Shown one piece after another: positions 5,028 through 49,795 of a stretch of DNA of 64,000 nucleotides; position 1 is the first letter of the stretch, and every line of letters begins with the position of its first letter. The stretch spans positions 248,001 to 312,000 of the forward strand of contig NZ_CP039853.1 in NCBI RefSeq assembly GCF_006228385.1, read 5' to 3'. The translations under genes and the position numbers were made by a program. The notes beneath the pieces were generated by a model. The model did no database searches, had not been told where the DNA came from, and worked only from the letters and a program-made list of their open reading frames with translations. The stretch is from Salinimonas iocasae (GTDB taxonomy: Bacteria; Pseudomonadota; Gammaproteobacteria; Enterobacterales; Alteromonadaceae).

Positions 5028-5057
5028 CAATGAAATAAGGTCAATAAATCGGGAAAC
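5028..5057 (-). promoter_or_regulatory. shared tra motif copy A, upstream of dotF
   Basis: On the minus strand this reads CCCGATTTAT, five bases, then TTATTTCATTG. The first C (5053) is 85 nt before the dotF GTG. The CCCGAT and TTATTTCATTG parts recur in the copy before position 29373, 24 kb away. It may be a promoter element or regulator site; the function is inferred from recurrence. Confidence 0.7.
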
Positions 5058-5243
5058 TTAGAATTAATACTTTCGGGCTTTACGTGAAGAGGAAGCAGAT
5101 GGGGGGGGCTGGCTAGCTTAGATATCACCATCACTGCTAATGAGCGAGCCAATAGGATATCTCAAGGTACTGTTCTCTCAATATCAGAAAATGGATGGAA
5201 GGGCTGTTGAAAATGTTTCCCTTCCCCCAATATTTTTTGAAAC

Positions 5244-5678
5244 CTAATGCATAGGGTTTTGTTCTTTAAGTTGCTGCCGGTCAAGGTATGGTGTGTTGTC
5301 GTTTGATGGCGGTGGCGTGGGGGGAATCGGCCTATTCAAATGATGTATTTTGTCTAATACAATTCCGCTGATCAGTGAACCACCGGGTCGCTTCTGTTTA
5401 TCATACTCCAGAATTGAAAAATAAAGCTTGCGCTTGCCGTTTCCTTGAATAAAACCTAAAACGTCTGAAACTTCACTTCTTAGTTTTTCATACCTACCGA
5501 GATGCTCAGAACTTTCTTTTTTCAACTTCGCTACTGACTCGTTATAGTTTTTTGCAGCTTTCAAACTTAATTCAGTCTCCGTTTTGATTCGAGAGACTTT
5601 TCTATTAAGGCGATTGATATGTATAAATGAAACTATCAGTAAGAAAACAGCTGTAAAAATAATTGCTAGTAGATACAT
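5244..5678 (-). CDS. single-pass membrane coiled-coil protein, unknown
   Basis: 144 residues: one N-terminal membrane segment (about 2-20), a charged coiled-coil region (about 25-75), then a Pro-rich tail (PIPPTPPP near 117-124). I do not recognise the family. It is inserted between dotG and dotF, where Legionella has no gene, and is separated from dotG by two stem-loops. The layout suggests an inner-membrane accessory subunit with a periplasmic or cytoplasmic coiled coil, but no function can be assigned. Confidence 0.7.
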   Translation of the reverse strand: MYLLAIIFTAVFLLIVSFIHINRLNRKVSRIKTETELSLKAAKNYNESVAKLKKESSEHLGRYEKLRSEVSDVLGFIQGNGKRKLYFSILEYDKQKRPGGSLISGIVLDKIHHLNRPIPPTPPPSNDNTPYLDRQQLKEQNPMH

Positions 5679-5821
5679 TTCGGATGGTTTGGCTATATCA
5701 GGTTATAAATAAATTTATCATTAAGCCTACACCGTGGCTAGCAACGATATGTCTCTGAAATCTAACTCAGTTATTATCCTGTAGCTGTTACTAATTATGC
5801 TGTGAAGCTTTAGCCTGGTCG

Positions 5822-5885
5822 AGCAGAGCTATATGAAATATTACAGCTCTGCTTACAGTAGCCATAATGTGATTGTCATTATGGC
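5822..5885 (-). terminator. tandem stem-loops downstream of dotG
   Basis: Two perfect 9-bp stems: AGCAGAGCT (5822-5830) with AGCTCTGCT (5845-5853), and GCCATAATG (5861-5869) with CATTATGGC (5877-5885). They lie just after the dotG stop. Neither has a T-run, so they may be attenuators or 3'-end protectors that lower expression of the genes after dotG rather than full terminators. Confidence 0.55.
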
Positions 5886-5898
5886 TTCAGACTTACAG

Positions 5899-8800
5899 TT
5901 AATGCTGAGTAGGCAAATCTTTATCTGTAATGTGAGTAAAGATTTTCATTACCATTTCAGTATTTTGAGGAATTTTCACAGTTACCGGTCGATTCACCCG
6001 TTCTGCCAGTGACGGTAACAGCGCCCGACCAACTTCCCCAACCCCTTGTAATGCAATCTCCGCATAATTTAACCCTTCAACGATTGTCGTTGTTGAAGTG
6101 CTCCCTGGGATACTATCTGTAATTTGAGTACGATCCTGAGAGTTCGCAATACCGTCTGCAACTCCGGTTCCAAATGACGCAAGGAATACGCCCCCAAACC
6201 GATACCAGAAGTGGTCATCTACTTCTGCGGCCATACCGGCAGATGCCGTGGAAGGGTCTAACGCCAGCCCTTCAGTACTGAAACATTTTAATTCCAAAGG
6301 GCAAATCTGATTAAATTTAAGAACGGCATTGTCGTAAACCAAATCTACGATTGCGTATGCTTTGGCCAGATGTAATGGATGCTCTGGAAAAGGCATATGT
6401 ATCTCAACTTCGAGCCGATCGTTGAAATCAGTATTAAGGGCATGGGTAGTCACAACAAAGTATGTTGAGCCTGTAGGCTCCACAATTTGTGACTGGGGTC
6501 CAACACTTTCAGTTCCAGTGTTGCTGTCACTCCCGACAGGACTCACCTGAGTACTTCCTTGAGAAGATATCCCCGGGGCTTTAGCGACAGTAACCTCGGT
6601 AGGCTTATATTTCGGTATTATATTTTTTTCATAACTTTTAGCTGTTTTTTCCATTGCGGTTATATAACCAGCCACCCGAGCACCAAACCGGCTTCTGGCG
6701 GCTTGGTCTACTGCACTTAATTTAATCTTTCCATCATCTGTTTGCGTGTCTTCAGCTTGTTTGGCTGAATCATTGTTTTCCTCTTTATCCTTCAAAGATA
6801 CGCCTGAAGATTCATTTTTCTTAGCCGGCTCCTCTGGTAGAGATGGGGGGGTGATTTTATTATCAGGCTCTTTGACTAAGCCATCATCAGATAATAAGTC
6901 TAGGTTGCCCAGCGTTACCGGCTTTTCATCGATAATAATACTATCGCCATTTGCACCAACGACTTGTCCTTGGCCATCAAGGCGTAACCGCTGGCCTCTG
7001 TATCTTATGGGTCGGTTTAGTCTATCCACCAGCTGATTAGTCCCATCTACATAAACATGTTCACCGTCGCGCAAAACGGGTTTGCCGTTTTCATCAACTA
7101 CTAACCCTTCAACTGACTTGTAATATTCAGTACCAGGTATTTTAGTAAGCTGCTTAGACCCGGCCAAAAGCTTTCCATTGGCCCCCAAAGCGACACCTTG
7201 AGCATTTACCGGTGTTACACCGCTCGCTTTTTTTCCATCTTTAGTTATAAACTCACCAGCTTCGCTTAAATACAGTGAGTTACCACGAGGGTCGCGCAGC
7301 GGGTTACCGTCCTCATCAATTAAACGACCTGTTTCAGGGTCAATTTCAATAGCTTTACCTTTATATTTGAAAGGCTTCCCCTCTTTATCAAGAAGCTTTC
7401 CATCGCGTGTAATATACACATCAGATTCACCGATCTTCTTCATCGCAGAGGTAACCGGTTTACCGTTACCAAATAATAAACGCCCGTCACCATCTGCAAA
7501 GATAGCCTCTTTAACTGGCGTTCCATCCTCAGTAATGATCTCACCCTTATCATTCAAGAATAAAGGGTTACCTTTTGAGTCAGTGACTATGTTTCCATCT
7601 TCATCGTAAATTCGGCCGTCAGCACCTACTCTGACGTTTTTATCTTTGTAAGTGAGAGGCTTGCCATTCTTATCAAGAATGTATCCATCTTCGGTTCTTA
7701 TAAAGCCGCTTTTATAGCTGCGGCCTAAAGGGTTTACTGCCTCAAATCCACCATTGGCTATTATTGAAAGTGCGCCTTCATCCCATGGCGATATCGCTTT
7801 TTTCCCTGTTTTATCTTTTAGGCGCATGTTTTCATCAAGAAACAGTTCACGACCATCATGCCCTTTAACTGCCTCACCATTTGCGTAAACCAAAGCGCCA
7901 TCCGGGCGACGGTAAACCTGCTTTCCATTATGGGTAATTGGTTTTCCATTTAAAGTAACCAGCTCTTTAGGCACTGACGCTGATTTGTGATTACCCGAGC
8001 CATTAGTAGGATTCGTCAGTTGATCGTTTATTGCTTTATCAGCCACTCCAAACTCATTCTGTACCGTTCCGTCAGGAGCAACCGTTAGCAAAGAACCAGA
8101 TTCATCTCGCAGCTGATTCCCATTTTCATCCAAAAGAATATTGCCTTTGCGAAACACCGGCTTTCCATTTCGGTAAACCTGTTTACCATCTGGACCTAAT
8201 AACGGCTTAATAACATCAAACTGCTCTGTCTTAGGATCAACTTTTCCGCTTTTGGTGCTAAACCCTTGCATGGCTGATAGCTCACCATTTTCATCAACAA
8301 TGAATCCTTGCTCGTTTAATCGAAGTGGACCACCATTCTCATCAAAAATTGGATTACCTTCTGCATCAAAGAGCTGGCCATTCACCCCCTCAAACACAGC
8401 TTTATTTTTATAAAAAAGCTGCTCACCAGCTTTGCTGAGCACTGGCTTACGAGCATTTTTGTCCATCATCATTTCGCCAGTAGAAGATAAGACCACGCCT
8501 TCACTTGATGTTAAATCAACGCCAATCTGTGCCAGTTTGTTATCTTTGGTCACAAACCGTCCCAACTCATCAATATAGAGCTGATTGCCATCTTTATCTG
8601 TCACCTGCACCAAATCGTACGTGCGTAAACCAATGAGTTTATTTGGAAGGTAAGTATTAAAGTCGAGAAACATGTCCTTGTGTTTAAATAGCAGAGGTTT
8701 TCCACCTACAGAGGCCAGTAATCCATCACTTGAAATAAAAACATCAGATGTGCCCTTTTGTGAAAGCTTCCCAGGTCGGGAAAGCAGGTGCCCATTACGG

Positions 8801-11005: not shown

Positions 11006-11011
11006 ATGTTC

Positions 11012-11731: not shown

Positions 11732-12393
11732 CGCTTTATAGTTCCCAAGTCACTGATTAACAGTCCTTCAATAGCTTTGTCACGCGACACGCGTTTAAAT
11801 GTCAGTTCGAGTATGACCTTATTGCTTTCGGGCTCTCCCGCAGGCCCTACAGCGGTCTGAACCATTCGAATCTGATATTTAATGAATCGATCCCCATCGA
11901 CGATAAACTCAGCCATGAGGTCGGCATTTCTAACTGTTGCAGCGGTAATGATGTAATTATTTTTTTGAATTCGTTCGAATGCTCCGGCGTCTTGAAGCGG
12001 TCGTCTATAAACAGTTTCATAGGTCGCATCGTCCACAAACAGAGAGCGTCGCTCTTGCATCTGATCTTCAAGATTTAAAAAGTGGAAATTCATCAACCGC
12101 ATCGCATACTTGTCGGCTAAAGCGGCAGAAAATGCTAGAGAGTTTTCAAGATTGAATATGGGAGGAATAACTGTTGTATTTTTGTCCTCATCAACCAGTA
12201 CCGGCTCGCTTAAGCGTAATTCAGTTGCATCAAACGCTAGAGTTAGTCCCAGCCCGACAATAACGGCCAGCAATCCTGACGATAAAAGCAGTTTGCGCTG
12301 TAGCTTCTTTTGCATTTGCCGGTTTTGCCCCAAAGCGTATTCCAGCAATTCATCTGTGATAGTCACCACCTGGGGGGAATTCAAATTCGTCAT
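11728..12393 (-). CDS. dotJ: DotJ/IcmM-like VirB8-fold paralogue of DotI
   Basis: 221 residues, one membrane segment (about 34-53) and a periplasmic domain ending in KVILELTFKRVSRDKAIEGLLI, closely parallel to the DotI end (VDFLIKRVSRKHNEKGLAVDAYFI). The shared KRVSR element supports a common origin with dotI. Legionella DotJ is short, lacking the periplasmic domain, so this full-length form is closer to a second DotI. It starts 4 nt inside the preceding gene. Confidence 0.8.
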   Translation of the reverse strand: MTNLNSPQVVTITDELLEYALGQNRQMQKKLQRKLLLSSGLLAVIVGLGLTLAFDATELRLSEPVLVDEDKNTTVIPPIFNLENSLAFSAALADKYAMRLMNFHFLNLEDQMQERRSLFVDDATYETVYRRPLQDAGAFERIQKNNYIITAATVRNADLMAEFIVDGDRFIKYQIRMVQTAVGPAGEPESNKVILELTFKRVSRDKAIEGLLISDLGTIKR

Positions 12394-12779
12394 GCAGGCA
12401 TTGACTCGCTGCTATTTACCCAGACAACACCGAGTTTTTTTAGATATTGAATGCATGCGTAAATTGCGAGTGCTTTTTCACCTTCACCTGCGTTGTTAAG
12501 AAGGCCTGTAAAGCGAACCTCAGATCTGTCTGAATCATCTGACTCCCCTTCAATGGGTAAGCTCACTTCCACATTGCCTGAGTTACCTGACAGCGAATCT
12601 GGGATCACATCGGCGTTTATTGAGCGAATAGTGCCGGATAAATGCGCTATAAATTGCGCCAGCATGAAAACACGATTTTGCACGGGTATTTTGAAAAATG
12701 GCTCTTCCCAGTTTGCATTAACTCTAATTCCTCCACTGGAGGGCTCTGCTACCGCCAAACTTAAAACTAAAGATTTCAT
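12390..12779 (-). CDS. unknown soluble protein, first gene of the dotJ-dotG operon
   Basis: 129 residues, no signal peptide or membrane segment, acidic centre. No known family recognised. It overlaps dotJ by 4 nt and is the first gene after a divergent promoter region, so it belongs to the conjugation operon. It does not resemble the short chaperones IcmS, IcmW or IcmQ. The last third (EGEKALAIYACIQYLKKLG) looks like an amphipathic helix suited to protein contacts. Confidence 0.7.
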   Translation of the reverse strand: MKSLVLSLAVAEPSSGGIRVNANWEEPFFKIPVQNRVFMLAQFIAHLSGTIRSINADVIPDSLSGNSGNVEVSLPIEGESDDSDRSEVRFTGLLNNAGEGEKALAIYACIQYLKKLGVVWVNSSESMPA

Positions 12780-12841
12780 AATTCACCCTCACTCAATTAG
12801 TGGAGCGAATATTCTTTTAACCGCCCTTTTCTCTCAACCAC

Positions 12842-12870
12842 AAACCCGATTTATCGACTTTATTACCTGT
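12842..12870 (+). promoter_or_regulatory. shared tra motif copy B, divergent region 12780-12925
   Basis: AAACCCGATTTAT, five bases, TTATTACCTG. Its first CCC base (12845) is exactly 81 nt before ATG 12926. It lies in the 146-bp gap between the divergent dotJ operon and the DsbC-like/giant-protein operon, so it could serve either or both. Confidence 0.72.
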
Positions 12871-12925
12871 ATGCCCGCACGACTGCTCTTTAGACTGACT
12901 ATAGAAAATTTAAAAAGGGTATCGA

Positions 12926-13960
12926 ATGAAGTCTTTAGTTTTAGTGGTTTGTATATTGACGAGTATTCCTGCTTCAGTGTTCGCTGACACCTTTTCAGAC
13001 TACCTATCTACCGCAGAGCGCAGAGGCAAGGGACTCGTTACTACTTACTTTGGCGCAGGCTCTTATGTAAAAAGCTTTAAGCAGGTTCCTGGGGGAGTAT
13101 TTAAGCTGGATGCTGTATCTAAAGAAGGCGAGTCTCTTTCTTTATTTATGCTTGGTGATTTCGAAACACTAATTTATGGCCAGATGATCACGCCACACAT
13201 AGCTGATAAGGCACAAGCTGGTGGACTACCGGTATTAGAGCAAATAGCAGAACGCAACAAAAAACGTATCAGCTTAAGGAAAAAAACAACCGAGTTCGTT
13301 GCAAAATACAGTGCCGGTACCGCGGCAGCATTGCTCAATGACGAAAACTTTGAAAAAGACACGACTGAGCCACCAGCTGGGCATTTAGCTACGCCCCAAT
13401 CACAGAGTGAAGAGGAATCTGACAATGTAATCTTGGATAAAGTCAGGGGGTTACAACATGTTCAGCTTGGCGAAGGAAACAGAGAGCTGTTTTTGTTTAT
13501 GGATCTTAACTGCCCTGCTTGCCAACAAGAATTACCTCACCTAATTGAGATGGCAAAATCCCGTTCAGTTAGCATCAAAGTCATACCGGTTGCGTTTGTT
13601 AAACCACAAGATTCAACTGACAAAGCTATTCATCTTCTTAGTGAAACGAATTCAAAAGCGCGAATAGATAGGCTAAAGCTCCTTGCACAACGAAAATCAT
13701 TTAGCCAGTTGGTCAGTGATAACAAGTCAGTGGTGAATATCAAGGCGGCCCAAAGTCTGCAGCAAAACAATAAAGTTTTTAATTCACTTCCCAATATTGC
13801 CACCCCCTATTTTGTTGCAAATACCAACTACGGGTTAATAACCCGGGCTTTGGTTTCTAAAGCTAAAGTAGAGCAGTTAATTGATGCAATAACGCCGATT
13901 GCAGCACAGACAATGCAAAGTGACGGTCCGGCTGTATCCACTAACGCAGATGACATTTAA
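12926..13960 (+). CDS. exported DsbC/DsbG-like thiol:disulfide protein
   Basis: 344 residues with a signal peptide (cleavage near VFA-D at residue 21) and a C-terminal thioredoxin-fold domain carrying CPAC at about residues 195-198, with a later Thr/cis-Pro loop (ATPYFVAN). DsbC-type proteins have CxxC plus cis-Pro and isomerise or form disulfides in the periplasm. IncI plasmids encode a comparable protein (TrbB). Several exported products of this element have clustered Cys residues and are natural substrates. First gene of a plus-strand operon with the 500-residue and giant proteins; an AAAGGG site precedes the start. Confidence 0.82.
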   Translation: MKSLVLVVCILTSIPASVFADTFSDYLSTAERRGKGLVTTYFGAGSYVKSFKQVPGGVFKLDAVSKEGESLSLFMLGDFETLIYGQMITPHIADKAQAGGLPVLEQIAERNKKRISLRKKTTEFVAKYSAGTAAALLNDENFEKDTTEPPAGHLATPQSQSEEESDNVILDKVRGLQHVQLGEGNRELFLFMDLNCPACQQELPHLIEMAKSRSVSIKVIPVAFVKPQDSTDKAIHLLSETNSKARIDRLKLLAQRKSFSQLVSDNKSVVNIKAAQSLQQNNKVFNSLPNIATPYFVANTNYGLITRALVSKAKVEQLIDAITPIAAQTMQSDGPAVSTNADDI

Positions 13961-13993
13961 CCTCATTGCAGGTGAAAAATAAGAAGTAATGTT

Positions 13994-15496: not shown

Positions 15497-15499
15497 CTT

Positions 15500-18400
15500 A
15501 TGAACTTGAATAAAGATTTTATTACGCTGCAGATAACTGGACATAACGTCGAGAAAGGATATATCTATGGCATCCTAAAGGACGGTAGCGATGCTAAGTT
15601 AACGCTGGTTCAAAACAAGAACAGTACTGCACAAAACTTCGTTTCTGCATTGTCAGATAGCTCAGCCAAAACCTATGCTCCCGTGGGCGCCCATATAGTC
15701 GCCTATGGCATAAACACTATTAATGCGGACTCTGGATTTATTTCTGCTAACTTTGCCTCGGCAGTGACCAAGAATCCGGAACAAAAACATACCTTTGTTA
15801 CTCCCATTAAAGTAGACAGAAAGCCTGTTGCACGAGGAAACGGTAATAATCGGTTCCTAACGCTTGGTGCAAGTGTTCTTGATGCAGATTACACCCGCTT
15901 ACAAAACATCAAAGGTCTCAGGAAAGAGCTAACCGATGTTCTTCGAGGTTCATCTAACAAATCCGTTCCCGGATACTCACGTGGGTTAATGGTTCGTGTT
16001 GGGCATACACAACCTAACGGTCAAAAAGCAGTTGTACCGTATGAGTTTTATGCCTATCCAAATGAAAAAGCCTCAGATGCGATACAGCGTTTGTATGATG
16101 AAAACGGCGGGGATAATAAGTTTCGCAGGATGCTTGCGCGACTTAACCGAGAAATTGGGAAAGATAACGCTGTGATCGAGGCTGCCGGAATAAGTCGGGT
16201 AAGTTTTAATGACTATGGCAATCCCAATAACCTAAGTAAATACGCTAACGCCCAGCATTATAAAGCGAAGATACAAGGTCAAGTACGCCAAGCATATAGC
16301 ATGGCCGCCATTTCAATCAACAAGCAGACAAACCGCATTGATTCTGCTCATCCGTTGCCACGAGCTAAGATTCAAAACTCAGTGAGCGGGTTACTCGGTA
16401 TTCATAATGATATCGATGCCCCGTCATTTAACAGCGATACCCCTGGCACAGCAAATAAATCTCTTTCTGCGGGCATCAAAGGTTACCCATTACGAATTGA
16501 GCAACAACTGGATAGCAGCGGCCGGCTTTCTCGCTTTGCTGTCACAGGGCCTCGTACCGAGTTGGATAATTATAAAAGCCGTATTGAGTCTGCGGCTGTC
16601 GGCGTTAAGCCATTTTATAAAGAGAATACTAATAGCTACATCTTCCCCGCTATTGCTTATAAGGAAGTGGCAAGCACATTATCCGACCTCTCCGGTACCC
16701 CGGCAATATACATCAGCGAACAAAAACAAACCGGAAAAGCCAGTTACATTTATATTAATGGTCGAACTGATGAGCAACCGTTTCATAAGCGAATTTCTAA
16801 TGTTGCTAAAAATCTGTCTGGAGAAAACGTAGCGGGAGCCTGGCGTTTTCCTGAGAAAAACCGCCTTCAAGTAGAAGAACAATTGGGCGACTTACTATCT
16901 CAAAGCGCAAGACCTGAAACTGCGATAGAAAAAAAGTTTAAGCCTCGCTTCCCTGATTATGCTGAATGGCAACAGCAAAAGTATAGTTTGTCAGGCAATT
17001 CAATGAAGGACGCGCATTACGATCAAATTGAAAAATATGCTGAAGAAGCGGGAATTGATTGGGCTAAAACCGCTCCGAATATATTAATGCCGTCTCCGTA
17101 TACCGGAACTGAAATGTTCCTTAGTAACGCCAGCCAAAAAGACGTTTTCCCAAAGCAAACTGCCCATAACGGAAGTTGCTCTGTCATTGCTTCTACGTAC
17201 CGGTATAAATCTAAGAGAACTGATAAAGAACATCTTGGAATCTACCTACAGTTTAAAAACTTGAAGATGGGCGGCGGAGAATTTTTCACTGAGTTCAAAT
17301 CAGGGGATTATGACTTCAGCCTGTATGAAAGTGAGCGTGGAACAGGAAAAGTCAAAACTGGTGGTAGCTCACCCGAGGAAATCGCTAAGCGAGAGGCAGA
17401 TAACCAACAGCGACTCGCAGAAAAAGCCAAACGAGAAGCTGAACAGACTAAAAAGGCATTGCAGGATGCATTGATGACCTGGGGACAAGGTATACAAGCA
17501 ACCGGTAACGAACCCTACAATGTTAAAAAAGGTTTGCAATCACATGTTGACTTAATTGACCTTCGCACGGCGAAAACCCCTAACGGCAGCACATTTAGCA
17601 TGTATCAGCTGGTGGATGAATATGGCAATTTCACAGGACTTCAAAAAATCTATGACAAAGGCTGGAAAGATGAGAAGGGTCGGACAACGAATAAGGTATT
17701 TACAGAAGGTACGGTCTTTAATGACTTAGATACTGGAAATCCTGTAGGCACCCATGGAAGAGTTGGCAACGACGATGGTATAAGACCAATAGTTTATGCC
17801 GAAGGCATGGCTGATACGCTCTCTGCAGTAGCTGCGACGGGTCATTTTGGAAAGATAGGCATCAATAAGAACAACCTCAAATCTGTTGTCGCTGTTTCTG
17901 TCCACAACAATCCAAATCGTGACCATATTGTTGTGGGTGATAACGACCGTGCCCATAAAGATGGAAACATCGGCGCAAAAGCTGCGTTAGATGCTGCTTG
18001 GCAAAACAACGTGAAATGGATGATTCCTAATTTTGAGGGAATGGATCTTTCCAGCGACCCGAAAGATATCAACGACCTGCATCATCTGGCGGGCCTTGAG
18101 GAAGTCCAGCGCCAGATAGGAGCTGCGCACCCTGCACCACAGAACCTACTTGAATATTATAATACCCGACTTCAGTTTGAGAACGACAAAACCTACCCAG
18201 CTGCCTTTGAAAAGGCGCTCAAAGAAATTACTGAGCGATACCCTCAAATGGATAAAAGCCGCATTGAGGCAGGATTAACATTCAAAAGAACTGAGCAAAA
18301 TAACTATCAGTCTCAGGTTAATAACAGTAAAACTAAATCAGAGCGAAGTGAAAAATCTGAATCCGAGTCAACTGAATCGACCGAAACCGATGATGTTGTC

Positions 18401-29288: not shown

Positions 29289-29317
29289 AATCCCGATATA
29301 ACGAGCTTATTTCATTG
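29289..29317 (+). promoter_or_regulatory. shared tra motif copy C, upstream of the dotM-dotL operon
   Basis: TCCCGATATAACGAGC then TTATTTCATTG. CCC begins at 29292, exactly 81 nt before ATG 29373, the same spacing as copies at 12845 and 49770. This spacing is also the best argument for 29373 as the true start of the zinc-ribbon gene. Confidence 0.7.
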
Positions 29318-29372
29318 CTTGCTAACCTAAATACAAAGACCATCAACTTGTTACTTTTGCAATGTGGTCTTT

Positions 29373-30023
29373 ATGTCTTATTCAAAGAAAATTAATCCAA
29401 TACTGAAGCTGTGTCCACTTTGTGGCAGGAGACTTACCTACGGGTCGTTAGATGATGGTATCAATACCTCCTGCAAGTGTGGCTTTGAAGAGGCACCCGG
29501 CTCTCTTTATATTCTTCAGCACCTATCAGATGTCGTTTCTGAGTACACCCAACTCAAGGGAATAACTACGCTACAAGGTATTGGCCAAGATAAGTACTCT
29601 GTTAGTAAAGGGTTTGCTCTTGGCTGCTACGGTTATTTATCAATCATCCAGAAACGCAACGAAGCGATGGTATTTGGTGCCAGCGCACAGTCCGCGCTAT
29701 TTCAAGGCTCTGAACTATTTAGCATTGTTGAAAGCACCAAAGGTGTGCTTGGTGAACGACTATGCGTGAACATGCATGAATACGAGCCAGATGTTATTAA
29801 ACATCTATTTATCAATCAGCTTATTAGCTTGACCTATGTGATTGATGAAACAATGAATATTAGTAAGCAATCATCATTGGAGCGGTCATCAGACACCATC
29901 TATATCGAAGATGTGAAGAGCCTTGAAATGCACTTACCGGCTAAAGCAACAGTCAAATCTGCACATGAAGAAAGCGTCTCATCCCAGTTGAGTCTGAACA
30001 ACACTGACATGGGTATGAACTAA
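29373..30023 (+). CDS. zinc-ribbon protein with MGM-type C-terminus, unknown role
   Basis: 216 residues from ATG 29373; a GTG at 29364 is possible, but the 81-nt motif spacing favours the ATG. The N-terminus has CPLCGRR (about 15-21) and CKCGF (about 36-40), a four-Cys zinc ribbon. The rest is a mixed alpha/beta region with no recognised domain. The C-terminus (NNTDMGMN) resembles those of the giant protein and the 500-residue protein. It overlaps the next gene at TAATG and heads the operon that encodes the coupling protein, so it may be a cargo or an adaptor for cargo. Confidence 0.72.
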   Translation: MSYSKKINPILKLCPLCGRRLTYGSLDDGINTSCKCGFEEAPGSLYILQHLSDVVSEYTQLKGITTLQGIGQDKYSVSKGFALGCYGYLSIIQKRNEAMVFGASAQSALFQGSELFSIVESTKGVLGERLCVNMHEYEPDVIKHLFINQLISLTYVIDETMNISKQSSLERSSDTIYIEDVKSLEMHLPAKATVKSAHEESVSSQLSLNNTDMGMN

Positions 30024-35272: not shown

Positions 35273-35290
35273 CTTTATAACTAAAGCATT

Positions 35291-35324: not shown

Positions 35325-35353
35325 TATAAAAAACTTAGAAGTAAGTAGCCTGA

Positions 35354-38733: not shown

Positions 38734-39577
38734 TGGAAACTCAACAGGCCAAGAGTTTGACGCTCTTCTTCAATCAACTCATTAAGCAGATAATTTGTCA
38801 TATTAGTTTGATATACCTGTTCCCTTAGAAGGCCGGTGTTTGTTTTTGTTTTGATATCCAGATGCCATTCCGGTGAAAAGTATTTTCTTTGTGTTTCTGA
38901 CAACATAAATTCTGTTAAAGAAGTCTTCCCACCAACATCATTTACTTTCGTATAGCCTATCTTCCAATCTTTAGTCTCTATCAAAGGAGCTCTTAGTAAT
39001 ACATCTCGGGCCAATACTGAAAAGGCTAAAGTTTTCTTCTGAATTTGGCGGTAGTATTCAGCTGCATCTTCGCCTTCGAGTGTATCGGTCGGTTTGGGTG
39101 AAGGAAGTATCATGAGCTTAATCAGGGTTAGTAAGTCTTCTACTTCCTGTTCTGTCAGTAAATTCTGTGTCAATTTGTCAAGTTGCGGAGTTAATTCTTC
39201 TATTTTTTTATCTACTTCTTGGCGTCTGAGTTTTCGACCATTATCCTTTTGACCTTTTAGCAAAGCCCATTGTTTAAATCGCACCACGTGATCAGCAAGC
39301 CTGGTTTCAAAATCCACTATTGCTTGTTGTAATAAAGGAGCTCTATTTACTGCAATATCACCTGATATTGGTTGTGACTGAGGCCCCAGGGTTTCTTTTG
39401 ACCTCAAATAAGCATCGACCTTGAATTCAGACTTCATAGCCTGCGATATCTCATTTGTCATGAAATCAGTAAGATTAATTATTGTTTTGTTTAGCTTGTC
39501 GTTAGATAAGATAATTTTATTTGTAGCGGCATCAATTGCTGTCACCATTTGTGTGTTTTGCGACTCCAGCAAACCCC
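38730..39577 (-). pseudogene. 3' part of paralogue family member 1, split by IS30
   Basis: About 280 codons remain open, reading through TTG at 39572; this is the body and C-terminus (ending in ETQRKYFS... and LLSFQ) of the gene whose signal peptide lies at 40661-40876. The IS30 element separates the halves. Joining the flanks with a 2-bp CG duplication leaves the halves one base out of frame, so the target duplication is misjudged or a small indel followed insertion. Internal translation from TTG would make an unexported protein. Confidence 0.78.
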
Positions 39578-40660
39578 GAATTCAGATAATAAGTGCACCA
39601 CTCATGGTTAACGGGTGATAGATGATCAACTGCCTGTTGGTGGTATTCTAAAGTCGCCAAACAATTAGAGTATTACCATGAGTTACAAGCAGTTGATCGA
39701 GGGACAACGATACCAGATTGAGGCCTACTTACGCGAGGGTTTCAGTTATCGGGAGATCGGAAAACGTCTGAGCGTGAGTCACAGCACAATCAGCCGGGAA
39801 GTAAATCGCAATAGAATTCGGGATAACCACTATTTGCCGGAAGTCGCTCAGGCAAAAGCACTGAAGCGCCGCAGCCAGGCCGCAAAGTTCAGGATATCTG
39901 AACTGACGATTACCTTTGTTGAGTTCGGGCTGAACCAGAAATGGAGCCCTGAGCAGATTGCTGGTGTAGGTAAAATCATCGGTCATCACGTCAGTCACGA
40001 ATGGATTTATCGCTACGTCCAGCGTGATAAATTACGTGGCGGTAGGTTGTACAAACAGCTGCGCCAGAGTCACAGAAGGTATCGTAAAGGTGACCGTGCG
40101 AAGCGGATAATTATCCCGAATCGCGTTGGCATTGAGCATCGTCCCGCTATCGTGAACAAGAAAAAGCGGTTCGGTGACTGGGAAGCTGACACGGTTCTGG
40201 GCAAGCAAGGAACGGGCGCGATTGTTAGTTTAGTCGAGCGCAAAAGTAAGCTTTACCTGATACGCAAAGTGCCAGCGAAAAGCGCAGCAGACGTGGCCCG
40301 AGCCATGGTTGGGATGCTCTGGAAATATCGAGGTCATGTCCGAACAATCACAGCGGACAACGGCAGCGAATTCTGTGACCACGCGCTGGTCGCTGAGAAG
40401 CTCAAAACCAATATCTACTTCGCGAATCCGTACTCATCATGGGAACGCGGACTGAATGAGAACTTCAACGGTTTACTGCGCCAGTACATCCGGAAAGGCA
40501 CCGATTTACGGACGGTATCGGATAGGCAAATTAGTGAAATAGAGCGGGCATTAAATGCCAGACCGAGAAAGTGCCTCGGCTTCAGGCAACCTGTTGCGGT
40601 ATTCAATGAATTACGCAAGGCTGCCTAATTTAGCGAGTGGTGCACTTCGGAGTTGAATTC
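39578..40660 (+). mobile_element. IS30-family insertion sequence, complete
   Basis: About 1.08 kb with terminal inverted repeats: left GAATTCAGATAATAAGTGCA, right (reverse) GAATTCAACTCCGAAGTGCA, sharing GAATTCA and AGTGCACCACTC. It contains a single full transposase gene. A 2-bp CG may be the target duplication. It is inserted in a transfer-operon gene. Confidence 0.88.
39678..40628 (+). CDS. IS30-family DDE transposase
   Basis: 316 residues: N-terminal helix-turn-helix (YREIGKRLSVSHSTISREV, about 24-42) and a DDE integrase-type catalytic domain with DWEADT, TADNGSEF and NENFNG supplying Asp, Asp and Glu. Full length for IS30, no frame break, so the element may still be active. It is read opposite to the host gene it interrupts. 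Confidence 0.95.
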   Translation: MSYKQLIEGQRYQIEAYLREGFSYREIGKRLSVSHSTISREVNRNRIRDNHYLPEVAQAKALKRRSQAAKFRISELTITFVEFGLNQKWSPEQIAGVGKIIGHHVSHEWIYRYVQRDKLRGGRLYKQLRQSHRRYRKGDRAKRIIIPNRVGIEHRPAIVNKKKRFGDWEADTVLGKQGTGAIVSLVERKSKLYLIRKVPAKSAADVARAMVGMLWKYRGHVRTITADNGSEFCDHALVAEKLKTNIYFANPYSSWERGLNENFNGLLRQYIRKGTDLRTVSDRQISEIERALNARPRKCLGFRQPVAVFNELRKAA

Positions 40661-40876
40661 GCGACCCACTAACGATGAAGATGATGCAGAGATCGTATTG
40701 TTGAGAGTTTCAGTAGCAGAAACATTTGTGTTGACGGTAGTTTTTAGTGAGCTCAATGAACTATTTATTGATGCAGAGGCAGCTTTTATATCTTTCTGCA
40801 AGCACGAGTCACAGCCTGCAAATGCATTACTACTAACCATAGTGCCTAATAAGAATGCTAGCCTGAATCTACTCAT
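40661..40876 (-). pseudogene. 5' part of paralogue family member 1, split by IS30
   Basis: 72 codons from ATG 40876, which overlaps the preceding stop and has an AAAGGAA site: signal peptide (cleavage near AFA-G), GCDSC and a Ser/Thr-rich helix. The frame then enters the IS inverted repeat and stops after about 20 foreign residues. An in-frame upstream GTG (40903) is less likely. The product would be a short exported stub. Confidence 0.8.
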
Positions 40877-41576
40877 CTTTATTTCCTTTGTCACTCTCAC
40901 CAAATATCCGATTTACATTTAAAACAGATCTTACCTTTTCTTCTTGCGCAGAACGTCTTGAACGAGTGCTCGGCCCGCCATTTTCAATCCGTCTTTGCTC
41001 AATTTCTTGCTCTGTCCATCGTCGCTGATTTACCCGGGGATATTCACCGAATACCTCTTCAACTACCGCTTCCTGAGCTTCCCTGTCATTCATATAGACA
41101 CGAGAATCCTGTATATCTGAAAAGCTATTTACTCTGCCGCTCTGACCAAGTGAAACACTACCTAATCCCATTGGCGCTTCTAGCTTTGCATCCAAATATG
41201 CCGAAGCCTCATTTAGCTTATCTTCAACAGCACTGCAGGCCATATTCATTAATTGGTCTTTCAGACCGGCGTAGACACTGTTCCAGATACCGTATGGGTC
41301 AACCGTGATAACGGACAGGTCAAGCTGCATGATGTCATTCAGGCAGCCGGCCTCAGTGGCGGAATCCGGATTTTGAATTAGCTCATCGGTGAGATAGGTT
41401 GCTGATTTATTCATATCTACCCAAATAGCTTCTACCTGCTCTTTTTGTTTACAAGCGATAGAATCATCACCTGAAGGGCACGAAAAAGCGTTGGTTGCTA
41501 CACCGCCTGCCTGTTGAGCAAAAATTGGGGCTGGTATTAATGCCATAGAGAACAAAATCACTTTGAGACGATTCAT
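40869..41576 (-). CDS. exported protein of the accessory transfer operon, unknown
   Basis: 235 residues with a signal peptide (cleavage near IFA-Q, residue 21), four Cys in the first 110 residues (CPSGDDSIAC, C, C) and a charged Arg/Glu-rich C-terminus. No membrane segment after the signal. It overlaps both neighbours (4 nt upstream, 8 nt downstream). The position near dotA recalls the IncI TraV-TraX stretch, but I do not recognise the family. Confidence 0.72.
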   Translation of the reverse strand: MNRLKVILFSMALIPAPIFAQQAGGVATNAFSCPSGDDSIACKQKEQVEAIWVDMNKSATYLTDELIQNPDSATEAGCLNDIMQLDLSVITVDPYGIWNSVYAGLKDQLMNMACSAVEDKLNEASAYLDAKLEAPMGLGSVSLGQSGRVNSFSDIQDSRVYMNDREAQEAVVEEVFGEYPRVNQRRWTEQEIEQRRIENGGPSTRSRRSAQEEKVRSVLNVNRIFGESDKGNKDE

Positions 41577-42052
41577 AACATTTTCCCTTTTCTGTCATTA
41601 ACATTATTAAGTGCCGCATAAACCAACGCTAATCGCTCATTGTTCAAAAGCTCCTGCAAAGAGACCTGAGTATGAGCTGCAGCAAGCCTCTCAAGTAGAA
41701 TTTTTGCTGGCCGGTTATATTGCTCATTTGTAAGTAAGTTATTTGCAGAAAATGTGAGTGAATTAGTTATACCTGGTAAGCGTTGTTCAAGTCGCTGAAG
41801 GAGGTACATAGATGACTGAACTCTTTGAAAAGCGAGTACAGTTAACAGCGAAGGCAGGTCATCATTAAGAGCTTTCAGCTTTCTCTCATTTAGTGACTCG
41901 ACCCAATTTGCGACACGAGCTTTTACATTAATCTCGTCATCAAGAACCCAGACTTCAGCCAATGACATTCTGTCAAAAAAAGACTTTAGTTGTGGGTACC
42001 TGCTCCAATGTTTTTTAATAGCATTGTCATCAAACTCTATGTTTACAGACAT
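41573..42052 (-). CDS. unknown soluble helical protein, first gene of accessory transfer operon
   Basis: 159 residues, helical, no signal peptide. Not recognised. It starts the minus-strand operon that runs to 35354 and overlaps the next gene at ATGA. A copy of the shared tra motif lies directly on its leader (42058-42084), almost touching the start codon, and a second lies at 42149-42177, so its expression is likely tied to that of dotA and the other transfer operons. Confidence 0.7.
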   Translation of the reverse strand: MSVNIEFDDNAIKKHWSRYPQLKSFFDRMSLAEVWVLDDEINVKARVANWVESLNERKLKALNDDLPSLLTVLAFQRVQSSMYLLQRLEQRLPGITNSLTFSANNLLTNEQYNRPAKILLERLAAAHTQVSLQELLNNERLALVYAALNNVNDRKGKML

Positions 42053-42057
42053 GACCT

Positions 42058-42084
42058 ACCTAATAATCTCAATAAATCCGGTTT
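42058..42084 (-). promoter_or_regulatory. shared tra motif copy D, leader of 159-residue gene
   Basis: Minus strand AAACCGGATTTAT, five bases, TTATTAGGT. It ends 6 nt from ATG 42052, so a protein bound here could block translation initiation or transcription. The CCG variant is the main departure from the other copies. Confidence 0.6.
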
Positions 42085-42148
42085 CAAATTGCAAAGAAAC
42101 CTCTCTGCACGACAATAGGATTATCAAGCCGCGGGTTGTGTGTCACAA

Positions 42149-42177
42149 CGTAATAAGCGCGATAAATCAGGAAATTC
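42149..42177 (-). promoter_or_regulatory. shared tra motif copy E, between dotA and accessory operon
   Basis: Minus strand TTTCCTGATTTAT, five bases, TTATTACGT. It lies 18 nt before dotA (other strand) and 97 nt before ATG 42052. Two motif copies in one 142-bp divergent region suggest joint control of both genes. Confidence 0.6.
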
Positions 42178-42194
42178 ACTATTAGGCATTTGGA

Positions 42195-44456
42195 ATGAAA
42201 AACTGGTTAAAGATTACTGTTGCTGCTTTGCTCTTCTTCGTAAGCGGAGCTGCATTATCTCAACAGGATGACGGTAATGAAGGATATGAAAGTGAGCCTA
42301 TTATTGAAAATACAAACGACCTTGGAGTCCAGATTCTTAGAGGGGTTTTGGGTGACGTCGTCAACATAATATCTGGTGGTGAGCTTCCAAGAAAACCCGA
42401 TACCACTCTTGGTGCGGTAATGAAAATCTGGTGCGGTGCTCTTGCGGCAGTAGCTACACTATTGGTGGCGTTTGGAGGATTCAAGTGGTTTTTTGGTTCA
42501 ATTCATTCAGGGAAGCTAAATGAGCAAAAAATGGATACGACGGGTGTCCCCGTTAGAATGGTGATCGCTCTTGTATCTGTAATGCCTTTGGCGGCAGGTT
42601 ACTGCGCATATCAACTTGCACATATATATCTGACAGGTCATAGCTTGAAAGTAGCCAACCGCCTAACAGATACTGCGATTGAATTTATGTCAATAGATTC
42701 CTTTAACAGAAAAACCATGCCCGTCGACTCAGACAAAATCGCCGCCCAGGCTTTTGAAACTTTGGTATGCGCCCATGCAGTAAATGCTGCCGAAGGGGTT
42801 GATTCAGGTGAAGCCATTATTAAACCAAGTCATGTTTTGGACTTATCAGGATCAGGGGATGGGGAAACAGACGCTTATGGAATAAAATATGGTGAAAACT
42901 CTAACAGCTGGTTTGAATCCAATAGCTATTCAGCAAATGCTTGTGGGGAATACAGCATTAAGTTCAGTGAACCTGATTTCCGAATGACGACAGATGGCAA
43001 AGCTGAGAACGATTTGCTTAATGCTAATTACTTAGCTTTACAAACATTGTTCAGCGATATGAGCAAACCAGCAAGCACCTTTGTGAATAAAATTTATATT
43101 GAGCAAATAGAAAGTGCTGAATTAAGAGATCTTCATGCTGAAACAAGACTGAGAATCAAATCGCTTTCAGAGCAGTATAAGATGGCCATTGTTTTAGCCA
43201 GAGAACAATACGCCCAAGCTAAAACCGATGAGTTAAAAAAACCTGATTCAGAGTTACCAAACTATCTCAGCTCAACTCCCTCTTTTTTGGACAATTATAG
43301 TATTTCTGATGTTGGCTTTATAGGTTTAGGTGCCACATGGTGGATTGATTCAATCCGTACACAATCTTTTACCAACATGCTTTCTTCAATGAATGTCCAA
43401 GCGACTCCCATCGACGATAAGGCACTCTTGCATGAAGATTTAACTGATATATGGGCCGAAACTTACAGGGTTACAAACGGTCAGAGTGGGCGGATCACTA
43501 TTAGTAGTGCTGGTAATGTACAAAACTTATCAAAGCAGAAAGATGAGAACTTTTCATGGTTGATTAGTGCATCTTTAGCGCTCGTTAAAGAAACTAACGA
43601 TCCGCTGTTTGCATTGATGGAATTAGGTCATGAAATGATAGTAACGGCAGAGTCTTTGATTGCAGTTCTTCTTCTTGCCGATATTACTATTGAAGTCAGT
43701 GATAACCTTGCTAACGTTGATGCTACAAGTATTCCTTTTATTGGAACTATGCTAAATGCAGCTAAAGCAGTTGTTACTGGCACTGCAGAAGGCTCAGCTA
43801 AGCATATTGCTACCGGCCTTATGTTGCTTATTGGGCTCCTTTTAACGATGGGTGTTTACCTTGCCTTTTACTTGCCGACCATTCCTCTAATGCATTGGTT
43901 AGGAGGGGTTATAGGAGCTTTCAGTGCAGCGTTGGAACAAATAATATTAGCACCAATACACGGCATTTCCCATGCATTTACAGATGGTCATGGATTCGTC
44001 GGAGAGCGAGCTAAACAGGGATATATATTAGCCTTTGGCTCATTCTTACGGTTCCCAATGTTGGTTATCAGCTTCATTGTTGTTTATCCACTTTTACTTA
44101 TGATGGGCTTCGTAACATTTTTATTGTGGACCCCGTTTGCCGAATCAATGAGCAGCACCACTACAACTGGAATAATTAGTTTTTTTGGACTCTCTGCAGC
44201 CCTAATAGCAGTTTGTGTCTCAGTTATTGAGCGAGTGTTCTCTATCATGCATGAAATCAATGATAAGGCACTTAGGGCACTGGGCCACGGCGCCGACTCA
44301 ATGGGTGCACAAGGTTATGTCCATAGCGGAAATCAGCAATTTAGCACTGTGCAATCAACTATCTCCAAGGCCCCGGAGGGATTAGGAGGAGCAACCCCCC
44401 AAGGCGGAAACGTTCCTGGACCTCTTGAGGGAACTCAAAACAGAGATTTGAAATAG
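42195..44456 (+). CDS. dotA: DotA (TraY-type) polytopic T4BSS membrane protein
   Basis: 753 residues: signal peptide (ALS-Q near 22), two membrane segments (about 76-98 and 118-150, with PLAAGYCAYQ), a long periplasmic domain, then four to six membrane segments (about 490-700) and a Gly/Pro-rich tail. This is the DotA/TraY pattern: a large inner-membrane protein with a big N-terminal periplasmic domain, a core component required for substrate passage. A single transcript bounded by a divergent promoter region and a strong terminator. Confidence 0.88.
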   Translation: MKNWLKITVAALLFFVSGAALSQQDDGNEGYESEPIIENTNDLGVQILRGVLGDVVNIISGGELPRKPDTTLGAVMKIWCGALAAVATLLVAFGGFKWFFGSIHSGKLNEQKMDTTGVPVRMVIALVSVMPLAAGYCAYQLAHIYLTGHSLKVANRLTDTAIEFMSIDSFNRKTMPVDSDKIAAQAFETLVCAHAVNAAEGVDSGEAIIKPSHVLDLSGSGDGETDAYGIKYGENSNSWFESNSYSANACGEYSIKFSEPDFRMTTDGKAENDLLNANYLALQTLFSDMSKPASTFVNKIYIEQIESAELRDLHAETRLRIKSLSEQYKMAIVLAREQYAQAKTDELKKPDSELPNYLSSTPSFLDNYSISDVGFIGLGATWWIDSIRTQSFTNMLSSMNVQATPIDDKALLHEDLTDIWAETYRVTNGQSGRITISSAGNVQNLSKQKDENFSWLISASLALVKETNDPLFALMELGHEMIVTAESLIAVLLLADITIEVSDNLANVDATSIPFIGTMLNAAKAVVTGTAEGSAKHIATGLMLLIGLLLTMGVYLAFYLPTIPLMHWLGGVIGAFSAALEQIILAPIHGISHAFTDGHGFVGERAKQGYILAFGSFLRFPMLVISFIVVYPLLLMMGFVTFLLWTPFAESMSSTTTTGIISFFGLSAALIAVCVSVIERVFSIMHEINDKALRALGHGADSMGAQGYVHSGNQQFSTVQSTISKAPEGLGGATPQGGNVPGPLEGTQNRDLK

Positions 44457-44458
44457 TT

Positions 44459-44491
44459 TAAAAAAAACCTGTTCGCACAGGTTTTTTTTTG
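44459..44491. terminator. bidirectional terminator after dotA
   Basis: A-run, CCTGT, TCGC, ACAGG, then nine T: a classic rho-independent terminator usable in both directions, located between the convergent dotA and the dotD operon. Confidence 0.9.
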
Positions 44492-44502
44492 GATGGAAGT
44501 AT

Positions 44503-45620: not shown

Positions 45621-45631
45621 GTTTTCTTTGT

Positions 45632-48190: not shown

Positions 48191-49029
48191 CTGCCCCCCT
48201 CGATAAACACTGGCTTCCACTTATCAAGTTTTTCAAAAGTACTTTGCTGGTCGATACTATAAAACACATCATTTCCGTATAATGTTTTCCCGTCAGAAGA
48301 GACCACGACTGTAGGATCTGTAGAGCGAAGCGAGGGCATTCTTAAAACGTTCGTCATTGCCAGGTCTAGGAAATTGAAATGAAGCTTTAAATCGCGTTCC
48401 AAACGTTTGTAATTTTCCTCAAAGATAATAGATGCCTGTTCTCGACCGTATTCCCAGCCTCGCTCAAATTCGTATCTAAATACGGACTCTTCTTGCTTCG
48501 AACGAGGCAGAAATAAAGCTGAAGGCTTGCTTGGCTTTTGCAAAGCAATTGATAGGTAATCTCTCCATGTGGGCGGCTGTGTAATAATTTTAGCGGGCTC
48601 AAAAAGTGAGTAGGAAAATCCAGTTGTTCTTACTTTGCTGTCATTTATCCGTTGAAAAAGGCGCTCGCTGATGACAACCTTCGGTAACAGCAATTTTCCA
48701 TCTACTATGAATTGAGCGAAATTTGCTAACACTTGAAGTTTGGAATCGTAATTATTCAGCTGATTTTGGTTAATCTTGTTGAAATAGTACTGTCCCTCTT
48801 TGACACCCCAGTCGAACGCAGCCTGAGTCACCTTCTTTAAGCGCTCGCCCACATCTTTTTCATGCTTCAGGTTCGTTTCACTATCTATTGATGCATCTAA
48901 AATAGACTTCATTACAAGCCGCGACTCATCGCTCCCTTTTTCCTTCAGTGTCAGAGGAAAATTTACCGTTTCAGCCCCAAACGCAATTGAAGAAAAACAT
49001 ATTAATAACGGTATGAATCGTTTCATCAT
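48187..49029 (-). CDS. dotC: DotC (TraI-type) outer-membrane complex protein, no lipobox
   Basis: 280 residues, signal peptide (AFG-A near 18), then the DotC pattern: AFDWGVKEGQYYFNKI, PPTWRDYLSIAL and FERGWEYGREQASIIFEENY. Legionella DotC is a lipoprotein that with DotD places DotH in the outer membrane. Here I see no lipobox Cys at the signal cleavage site, so it may be a soluble periplasmic form that relies on DotD for anchoring. It overlaps dotD by 1 nt and dotB by 4 nt. Confidence 0.9.
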   Translation of the reverse strand: MMKRFIPLLICFSSIAFGAETVNFPLTLKEKGSDESRLVMKSILDASIDSETNLKHEKDVGERLKKVTQAAFDWGVKEGQYYFNKINQNQLNNYDSKLQVLANFAQFIVDGKLLLPKVVISERLFQRINDSKVRTTGFSYSLFEPAKIITQPPTWRDYLSIALQKPSKPSALFLPRSKQEESVFRYEFERGWEYGREQASIIFEENYKRLERDLKLHFNFLDLAMTNVLRMPSLRSTDPTVVVSSDGKTLYGNDVFYSIDQQSTFEKLDKWKPVFIEGGR

Positions 49030-49517
49030 TAATAGTCTGCGTACTTAACTTCAATAAGGTTCTCAGCTGCTTTGTAGTAAACATCAGCTCTGGAGCCAGT
49101 CACAGCACCAACTTGCTCTAACATCGAGAAAACTGACTTATAATCAGTATCAACTGTCACGATTATGTCGAACGTTGGCTTAACGTTTAGAAACCGGGGG
49201 GGATTCATGCTTGATACAACAGACAGTCTTTTGATAAAGGTATCCAACGGGCCAGTATATTGTTTACCCAGTGACTTGACCTGTTTTAAAACAGGCAGTA
49301 AGTCCAAGTCAGGTCTTTTGGGAGCCTGGCCGTTAATAGCAATATAATTAGCTTCCTGGAGTTGTTGAATTCGCGTCGTTCGCTTTACAACAATCTCAGC
49401 TAAACTATTTATTTTCGCTTCAACTGGGCTCACTCTTTCAGGCACGACTTCCTGTGGTGTATTTGTACACCCCTGAAAAAAAACACCTACCACAACTAAA
49501 ATCGCAAAATTTCTCAT
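49029..49517 (-). CDS. dotD: DotD (TraH-type) lipoprotein
   Basis: 162 residues with a lipobox FFQGC (Cys near 16), a helical linker (about 35-75) and a C-terminal secretin-N0-like domain (FDIIVTVDTDYKSVFSMLEQVGA...). DotD is the outer-membrane lipoprotein of the type IVB core. First gene of a seven-gene, fully overlapping operon. Its upstream 330-bp region holds three palindromic sites. Confidence 0.9.
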   Translation of the reverse strand: MRNFAILVVVGVFFQGCTNTPQEVVPERVSPVEAKINSLAEIVVKRTTRIQQLQEANYIAINGQAPKRPDLDLLPVLKQVKSLGKQYTGPLDTFIKRLSVVSSMNPPRFLNVKPTFDIIVTVDTDYKSVFSMLEQVGAVTGSRADVYYKAAENLIEVKYADY

Positions 49518-49544
49518 TCACCCACCAAATGATGTTTAGGGCCT

Positions 49545-49564
49545 CGCCAAGTACAAATGGCGTC
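49545..49564. promoter_or_regulatory. palindromic operator-like site 1
   Basis: CGCCAAGTACAAATGGCGTC, a compact form of the inverted repeat found at four other places. It lies 28 nt before dotD, within its likely promoter or leader. Confidence 0.6.
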
Positions 49565-49604
49565 TTGCACATGTGTTTTAAGTTCTGAAATAGCCGATTT
49601 CAAA

Positions 49605-49637
49605 ACGCCATAGATACATCAAAAGTACGAATGGCGT
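49605..49637. promoter_or_regulatory. palindromic operator-like site 2
   Basis: Arms ACGCCAT and ATGGCGT separated by 19 bp, with AAAAGTACGA next to the right arm. Same right half as site 3, 74 bp away. Confidence 0.65.
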
Positions 49638-49676
49638 CTTTCGATGCTAAATTAAGCGTCCCTTCCTTTCCTTAAA

Positions 49677-49711
49677 GACGCCAAACAGCATTTAAAAGTA
49701 CGAATGGCGTC
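49677..49711. promoter_or_regulatory. palindromic operator-like site 3
   Basis: Arms GACGCCA and TGGCGTC with AAAAGTACGAA before the right arm. Sites 1-3 fill the gap between dotD and the tyrosine recombinase gene; apart from these and the tra motif I see nothing else in 49518-49850. Confidence 0.65.
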
Positions 49712-49766
49712 TCTCAACTAAGTCTTGAGGCCAACAATACAAAGCTAATCTTCTGAGCAAAACCGG

Positions 49767-49795
49767 AAACCCGATTTATTAGCATTATTAGGTGG
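49767..49795 (+). promoter_or_regulatory. shared tra motif copy F, upstream of tyrosine recombinase
   Basis: AAACCCGATTTAT, five bases, TTATTAGGTGG. CCC begins at 49770, exactly 81 nt before ATG 49851, as at 12845 and 29292. Confidence 0.72.

Follow-up and report, generated by a model that had tools for sequence, protein, structure and literature searches.

What reads the short motif that recurs ahead of the transfer operons of a Salinimonas iocasae plasmid, and why does it stand exactly 81 nt before the start codons of unrelated genes? The motif, hereafter called the box, was noticed in a 64,000-nucleotide stretch of contig NZ_CP039853.1 (the window, positions 248001-312000) that carries genes of a type IVB secretion system (T4BSS). 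The contig, referred to below as C2, is plasmid-like and 348,008 bp long, in a genome of two contigs (4.16 Mb). The box recurs, with other letters, at the same operons of related plasmids, and promoter-like sequences lie at fixed distances from it on one or both sides. Judged from sequence, a control protein of the plasmid probably docks there. We consider it likely, if well short of certain, that it binds a plasmid-encoded master activator of the T4BSS and other backbone genes in a family of marine megaplasmids.

The box in the window and on the plasmid

A search with the pattern CCCGATTTAT-N5-TTATT recovers the following copies.

Box 1: 5034..5053, minus strand, CCCGATTTATTGACCTTATT; no mismatch; 85 nt before the GTG at 4968 (dotF-position gene).
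Box 2: 12845..12864, plus strand, CCCGATTTATCGACTTTATT; no mismatch; 81 nt before the ATG at 12926, between divergent operons.
Box 3: 29292..29311, plus strand, CCCGATATAACGAGCTTATT; two mismatches; 81 nt before the ATG at 29373.
Box 4: 42062..42081, minus strand, CCGGATTTATTGAGATTATT; one mismatch; 29 nt before icmW, and read as serving dotA in reverse.
Box 5: 42152..42171, minus strand, CCTGATTTATCGCGCTTATT; one mismatch; 119 nt before icmW.
Box 6: 49770..49789, plus strand, CCCGATTTATTAGCATTATT; no mismatch; 81 nt before the ATG at 49851.

The sequence-only reading had named the same six sites, with coordinates 3 to 6 nt off and no strands. Its spacings from the first C are exact, both the 81 nt to the starts at 12926, 29373 and 49851 and the 85 nt to the GTG at 4968; boxes 4 and 5 lack the 81-nt spacing. 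As claimed, all six matches with at most two mismatches lie between genes as read here, and the window holds no match of that quality within coding regions, where scattered copies would have spoken against the element. Box 2 also falls inside a TTG-started open reading frame (ORF; 12493-12987), taken as spurious. When up to three mismatches are allowed, 11 matches occur in the window (2.8 expected), and none of 100 shuffles gave as many. The five matches with exactly three mismatches comprise four inside ORFs (27426, 40529, 43813, 63005) and one outside (51330).

Copies are concentrated on the plasmid. At a limit of two mismatches, 20 matches fall on C2 (7 exact, 8 with a single mismatch, 5 with two) and 13 on the 3.81-Mb chromosome (none exact, one with a single mismatch, 12 with two); the pattern read backwards, as a control, gives 10 in the whole genome. 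The sole one-mismatch chromosomal copy lies at C1:3734256-3734275, and its 20 letters recur identically in a related genome (G021, C3:197886).

Some of the plasmid copies lie in the following array.

C2:863-1368, outside the window: 102-bp tandem repeats, the likely origin, with four box copies (at most two mismatches) and a fifth, degenerate one.

The array is interleaved with GGTGATCAGTTACAGGAAA-type iterons and precedes a rep gene (C2:2141-3457); the related draft genome G021 has four box copies too. These five copies would suit a reading in which the boxes function like parS or iterons, as centromere or replication-control sites, their proximity to promoters being secondary. We regard this as very improbable, given the promoter phasing in both directions described below and an origin region in the related plasmid pAMDE1 that is free of core matches at up to two mismatches.

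Layout in related plasmids and predicted promoter geometry

Relatives of the plasmid occur in Salinimonas (two loci, 99% identical in the HipB-like protein discussed below); Alteromonas, Glaciecola and Teredinibacter have more distant ones. C2 was compared with pAMDE1 (NC_019394), pTE101a (NZ_CP018322), pGLAAG01 (CP002527), pASTE61-200 (CP013927) and Bs12_MP (NZ_CP060093), among which the backbone is largely orthologous, mostly at about 25-65% protein identity. A shared syntenic core of pAMDE1-300, pASTE61-200 and pGLAAG01 had already been recognised (PMC5217437); the main text of that paper contains neither the word 'promoter' nor 'motif' and describes no regulon.

The motif search in T4BSS relatives that the sequence-only reading had proposed finds the box at orthologous operons in four lineages, each with its own letters: CCCGAYTTATY-N5-TTTG in pAMDE1, TTTCYGGATTTG-N4-CATTTAG in pGLAAG01 and TTTCCGGATATG-N4-CATTTAG in pASTE61-200, with a conserved core of CCCGA or CCGGA. 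In these three plasmids and C2 a box stands at the promoters of the dotF-position gene, the thioredoxin-like gene, dotM/dotL, icmW/dotA and the recombinase-like gene, and the two-box arrangement at icmW/dotA recurs in all three relatives. Measured from the first C of the core, the start codon lies at the following distances in C2, pAMDE1, pGLAAG01 and pASTE61-200, respectively; where several start codons were possible, the one nearest 81 was used.

dotF-position gene: 85, 80, 79 and 80 nt.
Thioredoxin-like gene: 81, 80, 81 and 81 nt.
dotM/dotL operon: 81, 81, 80 and 79 nt.
Recombinase-like gene: 81, 75, 82 and 82 nt.

The annotated start of the pAMDE1 recombinase (42454) is 129 nt from the box, and three pGLAAG01 genes have closer alternative start codons. 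Matches numbered 20 in C2, 15 in pAMDE1, 14 in pGLAAG01 and 15 in pASTE61-200, against 1, 6, 3 and 0, respectively, in a reversed-sequence control; the six control matches imply that the pAMDE1 set includes false hits. For Bs12_MP, from Teredinibacter, expectation maximisation on 20 upstream windows, some of them overlapping, gave a different and weaker candidate, TAAAAANCTSCACTTTTCGA-like (log-likelihood 121 versus 59-68 in six shuffles). Four of its five matches with at most two mismatches, a small set, have NATTAT at 47-52. Since the scan gave 34 matches against 22 in its reversed control, Bs12_MP was excluded from all promoter counts.

The geometry around the box was profiled for 60 boxes picked by sequence alone: 16 from C2 (the four origin copies omitted), 15 from pAMDE1, 14 from pGLAAG01 and 15 from pASTE61-200, with pTE101a left out as close to pAMDE1. 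Short words were counted at each distance from the box, offset 0 being its first base. On the forward strand TANNNT stands at offset 46 in 16 of the 60 boxes and at offset 47 in nine, compared with a mean of about one elsewhere. The binomial probability of the peak at 46, multiplied by 80 offsets, is 2.6e-13, and the highest count in 2000 per-site rotations was 9. TTG occurs at offset 23 in 12 of 60 boxes, and ATG at offsets 80, 81 and 82 in 5, 9 and 3. The opposite strand, read as a direction control, has peaks of its own: TANNNT at 50 in 15 of 60 boxes and at 49 in five (for the peak at 50, binomial probability times 80 of 4e-11; rotation maximum 10 in 5000), with TTG at 27 in 15 of 60.

These words leave a 17-bp spacer between −35 and −10 in each direction, that is, a sigma70-like pair at a fixed place from the box. 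With TTG at 23 and TANNNT at 46, transcription is expected to start at offset 58, about 23 nt ahead of the start codon; the 81-nt spacing would be the sum of 58 nt from the box to the predicted start site and a 23-nt leader. The distance that had been taken as fixed up to the start codon is fixed with respect to the promoter; a short leader makes up the rest. The second TANNNT/TTG pair, on the other strand, looks like a promoter running from the same box in the opposite direction, and each of the two predicted start sites lies about 50.5 nt from a common centre, located between offsets 7 and 8. We rejected the idea that a special sigma factor reads these promoters, as TTG and TANNNT with a 17-bp spacer have ordinary sigma70 spacing. 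An OmpR-like 10-bp direct repeat within the box was also considered and plays no part in this reading. Start-site data from dRNA-seq have been published for pTE101 of Alteromonas macleodii Te101, with 99 sites on the plasmid (PMC5864184, BioProject PRJNA355640). On NZ_CP018322 the geometry predicts forward start sites near 50356 (+), 88154 (+), 220155 (+) and 79417 (-), and reverse ones near 215375 (-), 220054 (-) and 79518 (+).

Better boxes were defined by at most one mismatch in C2, none in pAMDE1 and at most two in pGLAAG01 and pASTE61-200, a cut fixed after the forward profile had been seen and before the reverse one. A strict TANNNT at 46/47, or at 49/50 in reverse, accompanies 25 of these 32 boxes (17 forward, 16 reverse, 8 both) and 10 of the 28 weaker ones. 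All 32 better boxes match the looser NANNNT on at least one side, a common word that we estimate about one third would match by chance. The −35 hexamers are poor.

The predicted promoters follow the genes. With uncurated gene models (longest ORFs of at least 80 aa), and after dropping the three of 32 better boxes that lay inside such ORFs, 15 of the 22 boxes that have a gene start ahead of them carry the forward TANNNT, compared with none of the seven that do not (Fisher P = 0.0022); the reverse TANNNT is present at 16 of the 25 boxes whose neighbour behind is divergent and at none of the four whose neighbour is codirectional (Fisher P = 0.030). The sequence-only reading also needs correcting on direction: some boxes appear to serve a promoter that runs against the motif, or promoters on both sides.

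A regulator on the box would occupy about −58 to −39 relative to the start site and bring RNA polymerase to a sigma70-type promoter whose −35 is weak. In the forward direction the −35 would begin 3 nt beyond the box, with the −10 at offset 46-47. At divergent genes the same box would serve a second promoter, whose −35 would begin 7 nt beyond the box edge, with the −10 at 49-50 and the start site 62 nt from the box on the other side. UP elements lie in about the same −58 to −39 zone, and the box has T/A-rich stretches, so that RNA polymerase might itself recognise it as an AT-rich UP element, no special regulator being involved. The conserved CCCGA or CCGGA core, the letters that vary by plasmid lineage though the hosts are related, and the few chromosomal copies make this highly implausible. 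The original suggestion of one master regulator or a special promoter class is supported by the single-nucleotide phasing in four lineages and the concentration on the plasmid; that the regulator is a single one we infer.

A candidate regulator

The regulator is most likely the predicted HipB-fold protein encoded by the following gene, probably with a HipA-like partner, an assignment we hold at somewhat less than even confidence.

C2:27015-27464, outside the window: gene for the predicted HipB-fold protein, with a HipA-like gene after it.

This operon is conserved, and in all five lineages the lineage's own box stands before it, an arrangement at its own promoter that would give feedback. The box there is asymmetric and upstream of the predicted −35, not a palindromic operator overlapping the promoter. 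At C2:28046-28085, outside the window, the first gene of the operon lacks an ATG or GTG at the expected box distance; an in-frame ATC lies at offset 84. Across the same box stands a divergent GGDEF gene, with an EAL gene nearby (C2:28245-31459, outside the window). These annotations come from pAMDE1 and pGLAAG01 and hint at a link to cyclic di-GMP.

A structural model of the HipB-like protein built from 27 sequences reached a predicted local distance difference test score (pLDDT) of 83.4, with HipB as the first structural resemblance; an earlier model from six sequences (pLDDT 52.6) gave no useful match. A Pfam search with the single protein returned no family, and PDB sequence searches with the HipB-like and HipA-like proteins returned no HipA or HipB relative. 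The gene is present in eight PLSDB plasmids, the same eight that are nearest by DotL, and absent from the two Marinobacter T4BSS plasmids searched; among 295 genomes of the order it was found in its own genome only. A peptide-pattern scan of genome contigs recovered the two loci of 99% identity, both in Salinimonas.

The catalytic aspartates of HipA were placed in the alignment by a motif that we take to mark them. Both are replaced in the HipA-like protein of all five lineages, one by T in five of five and the other by N, N, A, A and H, and the protein does not qualify as a catalytically competent HipA kinase. Which HipA aspartates are catalytic follows PMC10653801. A second HipA-family gene on the same plasmid (C2:238873-240186, outside the window) has canonical-looking kinase motifs.

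Another plasmid protein, or a heteromeric complex, might instead bind a box that works as described, a reading to which we give nearly an even chance. In its favour, the box lacks symmetry, and about 45 C2 genes have conserved counterparts in other lineages, many of them without known function; the scan for DNA-binding domains covered part of these genes. Among the conserved genes scanned, on the other hand, the HipB-like gene alone yielded a predicted helix-turn-helix regulator fold, and its operon carries the box in five lineages.

Whichever protein binds, we favour activation, given where the box lies and how poor the −35 hexamers are. HipB proteins are usually autorepressors, and the box before the presumed regulator operon also fits autorepression. 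HipB operator binding is described in PMC10653801, and sites dispersed near promoters across a whole plasmid recall the logic of KorB. A plasmid-wide repressor or silencer could on these grounds hold the transfer promoters down, the phasing arising from contact with RNA polymerase or the −35. We judge it unlikely, as the box lies upstream of the −35, leaves the −10 and start site uncovered, and goes with −35 hexamers of the quality seen at activator-dependent promoters.

KorB of IncP-1 plasmids is a palindrome-binding repressor and partition protein. Its regulon resembles the present one in having dispersed sites for one plasmid-wide regulator, whereas the boxes here are asymmetric and phased to promoters. 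The closest working analogue is AcaCD of IncA/C plasmids (also SetCD of SXT/R391), a plasmid-encoded activator with 17 intergenic peaks in chromatin immunoprecipitation-exonuclease data, a class 2 profile and an example of a divergent promoter (PMC4207636). As there, intergenic boxes precede most transfer operons of one plasmid and the promoter profile is constant, though here it consists of predicted −35 and −10 elements at a constant distance from the box. The present system differs from AcaCD in the letters of its box and in the apparent use of a single box by promoters on either side, each at a fixed distance. The FlhC and FlhD families to which AcaC and AcaD belong (PF05280, PF05247) were found in none of five records (this genome and four related plasmids), with the E. 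coli control matching; membership in the FlhDC-type master activators therefore fails on protein family.

The candidate resembles HipBA and HipBST in its HipB-like predicted fold and its place before a HipA-family gene. It differs in the replaced aspartates and in boxes that are plasmid-wide and not inverted repeats. HipB operators of L. pneumophila are inverted repeats, located, in the account given in PMC10653801, only at their own and one related locus. In pCTX-M3, an enterobacterial T4BSS plasmid, the description in PMC6112013 lists putative regulators as genes, without boxes.

Taken to its full extent, the proposal would be that a toxin-antitoxin pair, HipB with a catalytically dead HipA, became the master switch of the T4BSS conjugation regulon. 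Its complex on the asymmetric box would activate two divergent promoters equidistant (about 50.5 nt) from the centre, and protein and boxes would have changed specificity together in at least five lineages, each plasmid reading mainly its own boxes. We put this forward tentatively, as a possibility with more doubt than confidence attached.

Genes presumably served and implications

In the window the geometry gives the following predicted promoters (−35 / −10).

Box 1: 5002..5030, minus strand; TTGAGA (5030-5025) / TAACTT (5007-5002); expected start site about 4995.
Box 2, forward: 12868..12896, plus strand; TGTATG / TAGACT; expected start site about 12903; would serve the thioredoxin-like gene.
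Box 2, reverse: 12809..12837, minus strand; TTGAGA / GAATAT (NANNNT only); expected start site about 12802, which leaves 23 nt to the ATG of the dotI-dotH-dotG operon (12779).
Box 3: 29315..29343, plus strand; TTGCTT / GACCAT (NANNNT only); expected start site about 29350; operon with dotM and dotL.
Box 4, reverse: 42089..42116, plus strand; TTGCAA / GACAAT (16-bp spacer, NANNNT only); expected start site about 42123 for dotA (ATG 42195).
Box 5: 42120..42148, minus strand; TTGTGA / GATAAT; expected start site about 42113 for icmW (ATG 42052).
Box 6, forward: 49793..49821, plus strand; TGGTGA / TACCTT; expected start site about 49828; tyrosine-recombinase-like gene.
Box 6, reverse: 49734..49762, minus strand; TTTTGC / TATTGT; expected start site about 49727.

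Behind boxes 1 and 3 the neighbouring gene is codirectional, and neither box has a reverse −10. A reverse −10 is present at boxes 2 and 6, which stand between divergent genes, at box 2 as NANNNT only. Box 4 has a −10 in the reverse direction only, toward dotA, and a promoter firing that way would account for its position only 29 nt before icmW. The dotD-dotC-dotB-parM operon could be transcribed from the reverse promoter of box 6, with a long leader (about 210 nt). The presumed targets are these.

4024..4968, minus strand: dotF-position gene, target of box 1; the name is that of the sequence-only reading, and there is no Pfam match.
12390..12779, minus strand: first gene of an operon with two DotI/IcmL-like proteins, DotH and DotG; target of box 2.
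12926..13960, plus strand: thioredoxin/DsbG-like protein (weak match, E 5.6e-9), target of box 2.
29373..30023, plus strand: cysteine-rich protein, target of box 3; heads an operon with DotM (31498) and a DotL-like coupling protein (32774).
41573..42052, minus strand: IcmW, target of box 5.
42195..44456, plus strand: DotA/TraY, target of box 4.
49029..49517, minus strand: DotD/TraH-like lipoprotein, possible target of box 6; heads an operon with DotC, DotB and ParM.
49851..50843, plus strand: tyrosine-recombinase-like protein, target of box 6; identified by the sequence-only reading and our own reading of the sequence, with no Pfam match.

An inverted repeat (AAAGACCAT ... ATGGTCTTT-like, 29338-29373) lies directly before the ATG at 29373; a similar one at the pAMDE1 ortholog suggests that translation of this gene may be controlled too. 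The window also holds a 4582-aa gene (15500-29248) without a Pfam match, 39-46% conserved in related plasmids, whose ortholog is annotated as an N-6 DNA methylase in pAMDE1 and pTE101a. An IS30-like transposase (39678-40628) sits between ORFs 38730-39572 and 40625-40903. As both match one pAMDE1 ORF (51376-52455), a conserved transfer-region gene seems interrupted. Type I-F CRISPR genes (Csy4, Csy3) occupy 62324-63903 of this plasmid-like contig.

No description of the box was found among the open PubMed Central papers searched, also by its core letters CCCGATTTAT; in those papers, how marine T4BSS megaplasmids control their conjugation seems to be unstudied. Here a whole regulon becomes readable from sequence, and its start sites can be predicted at single-nucleotide resolution. 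If the HipB-like protein is the regulator, the lineage-specific boxes would be a natural experiment in which a regulator and dozens of sites change together, and if it acts with its dead HipA partner, a toxin-antitoxin module would have been turned into a master switch.

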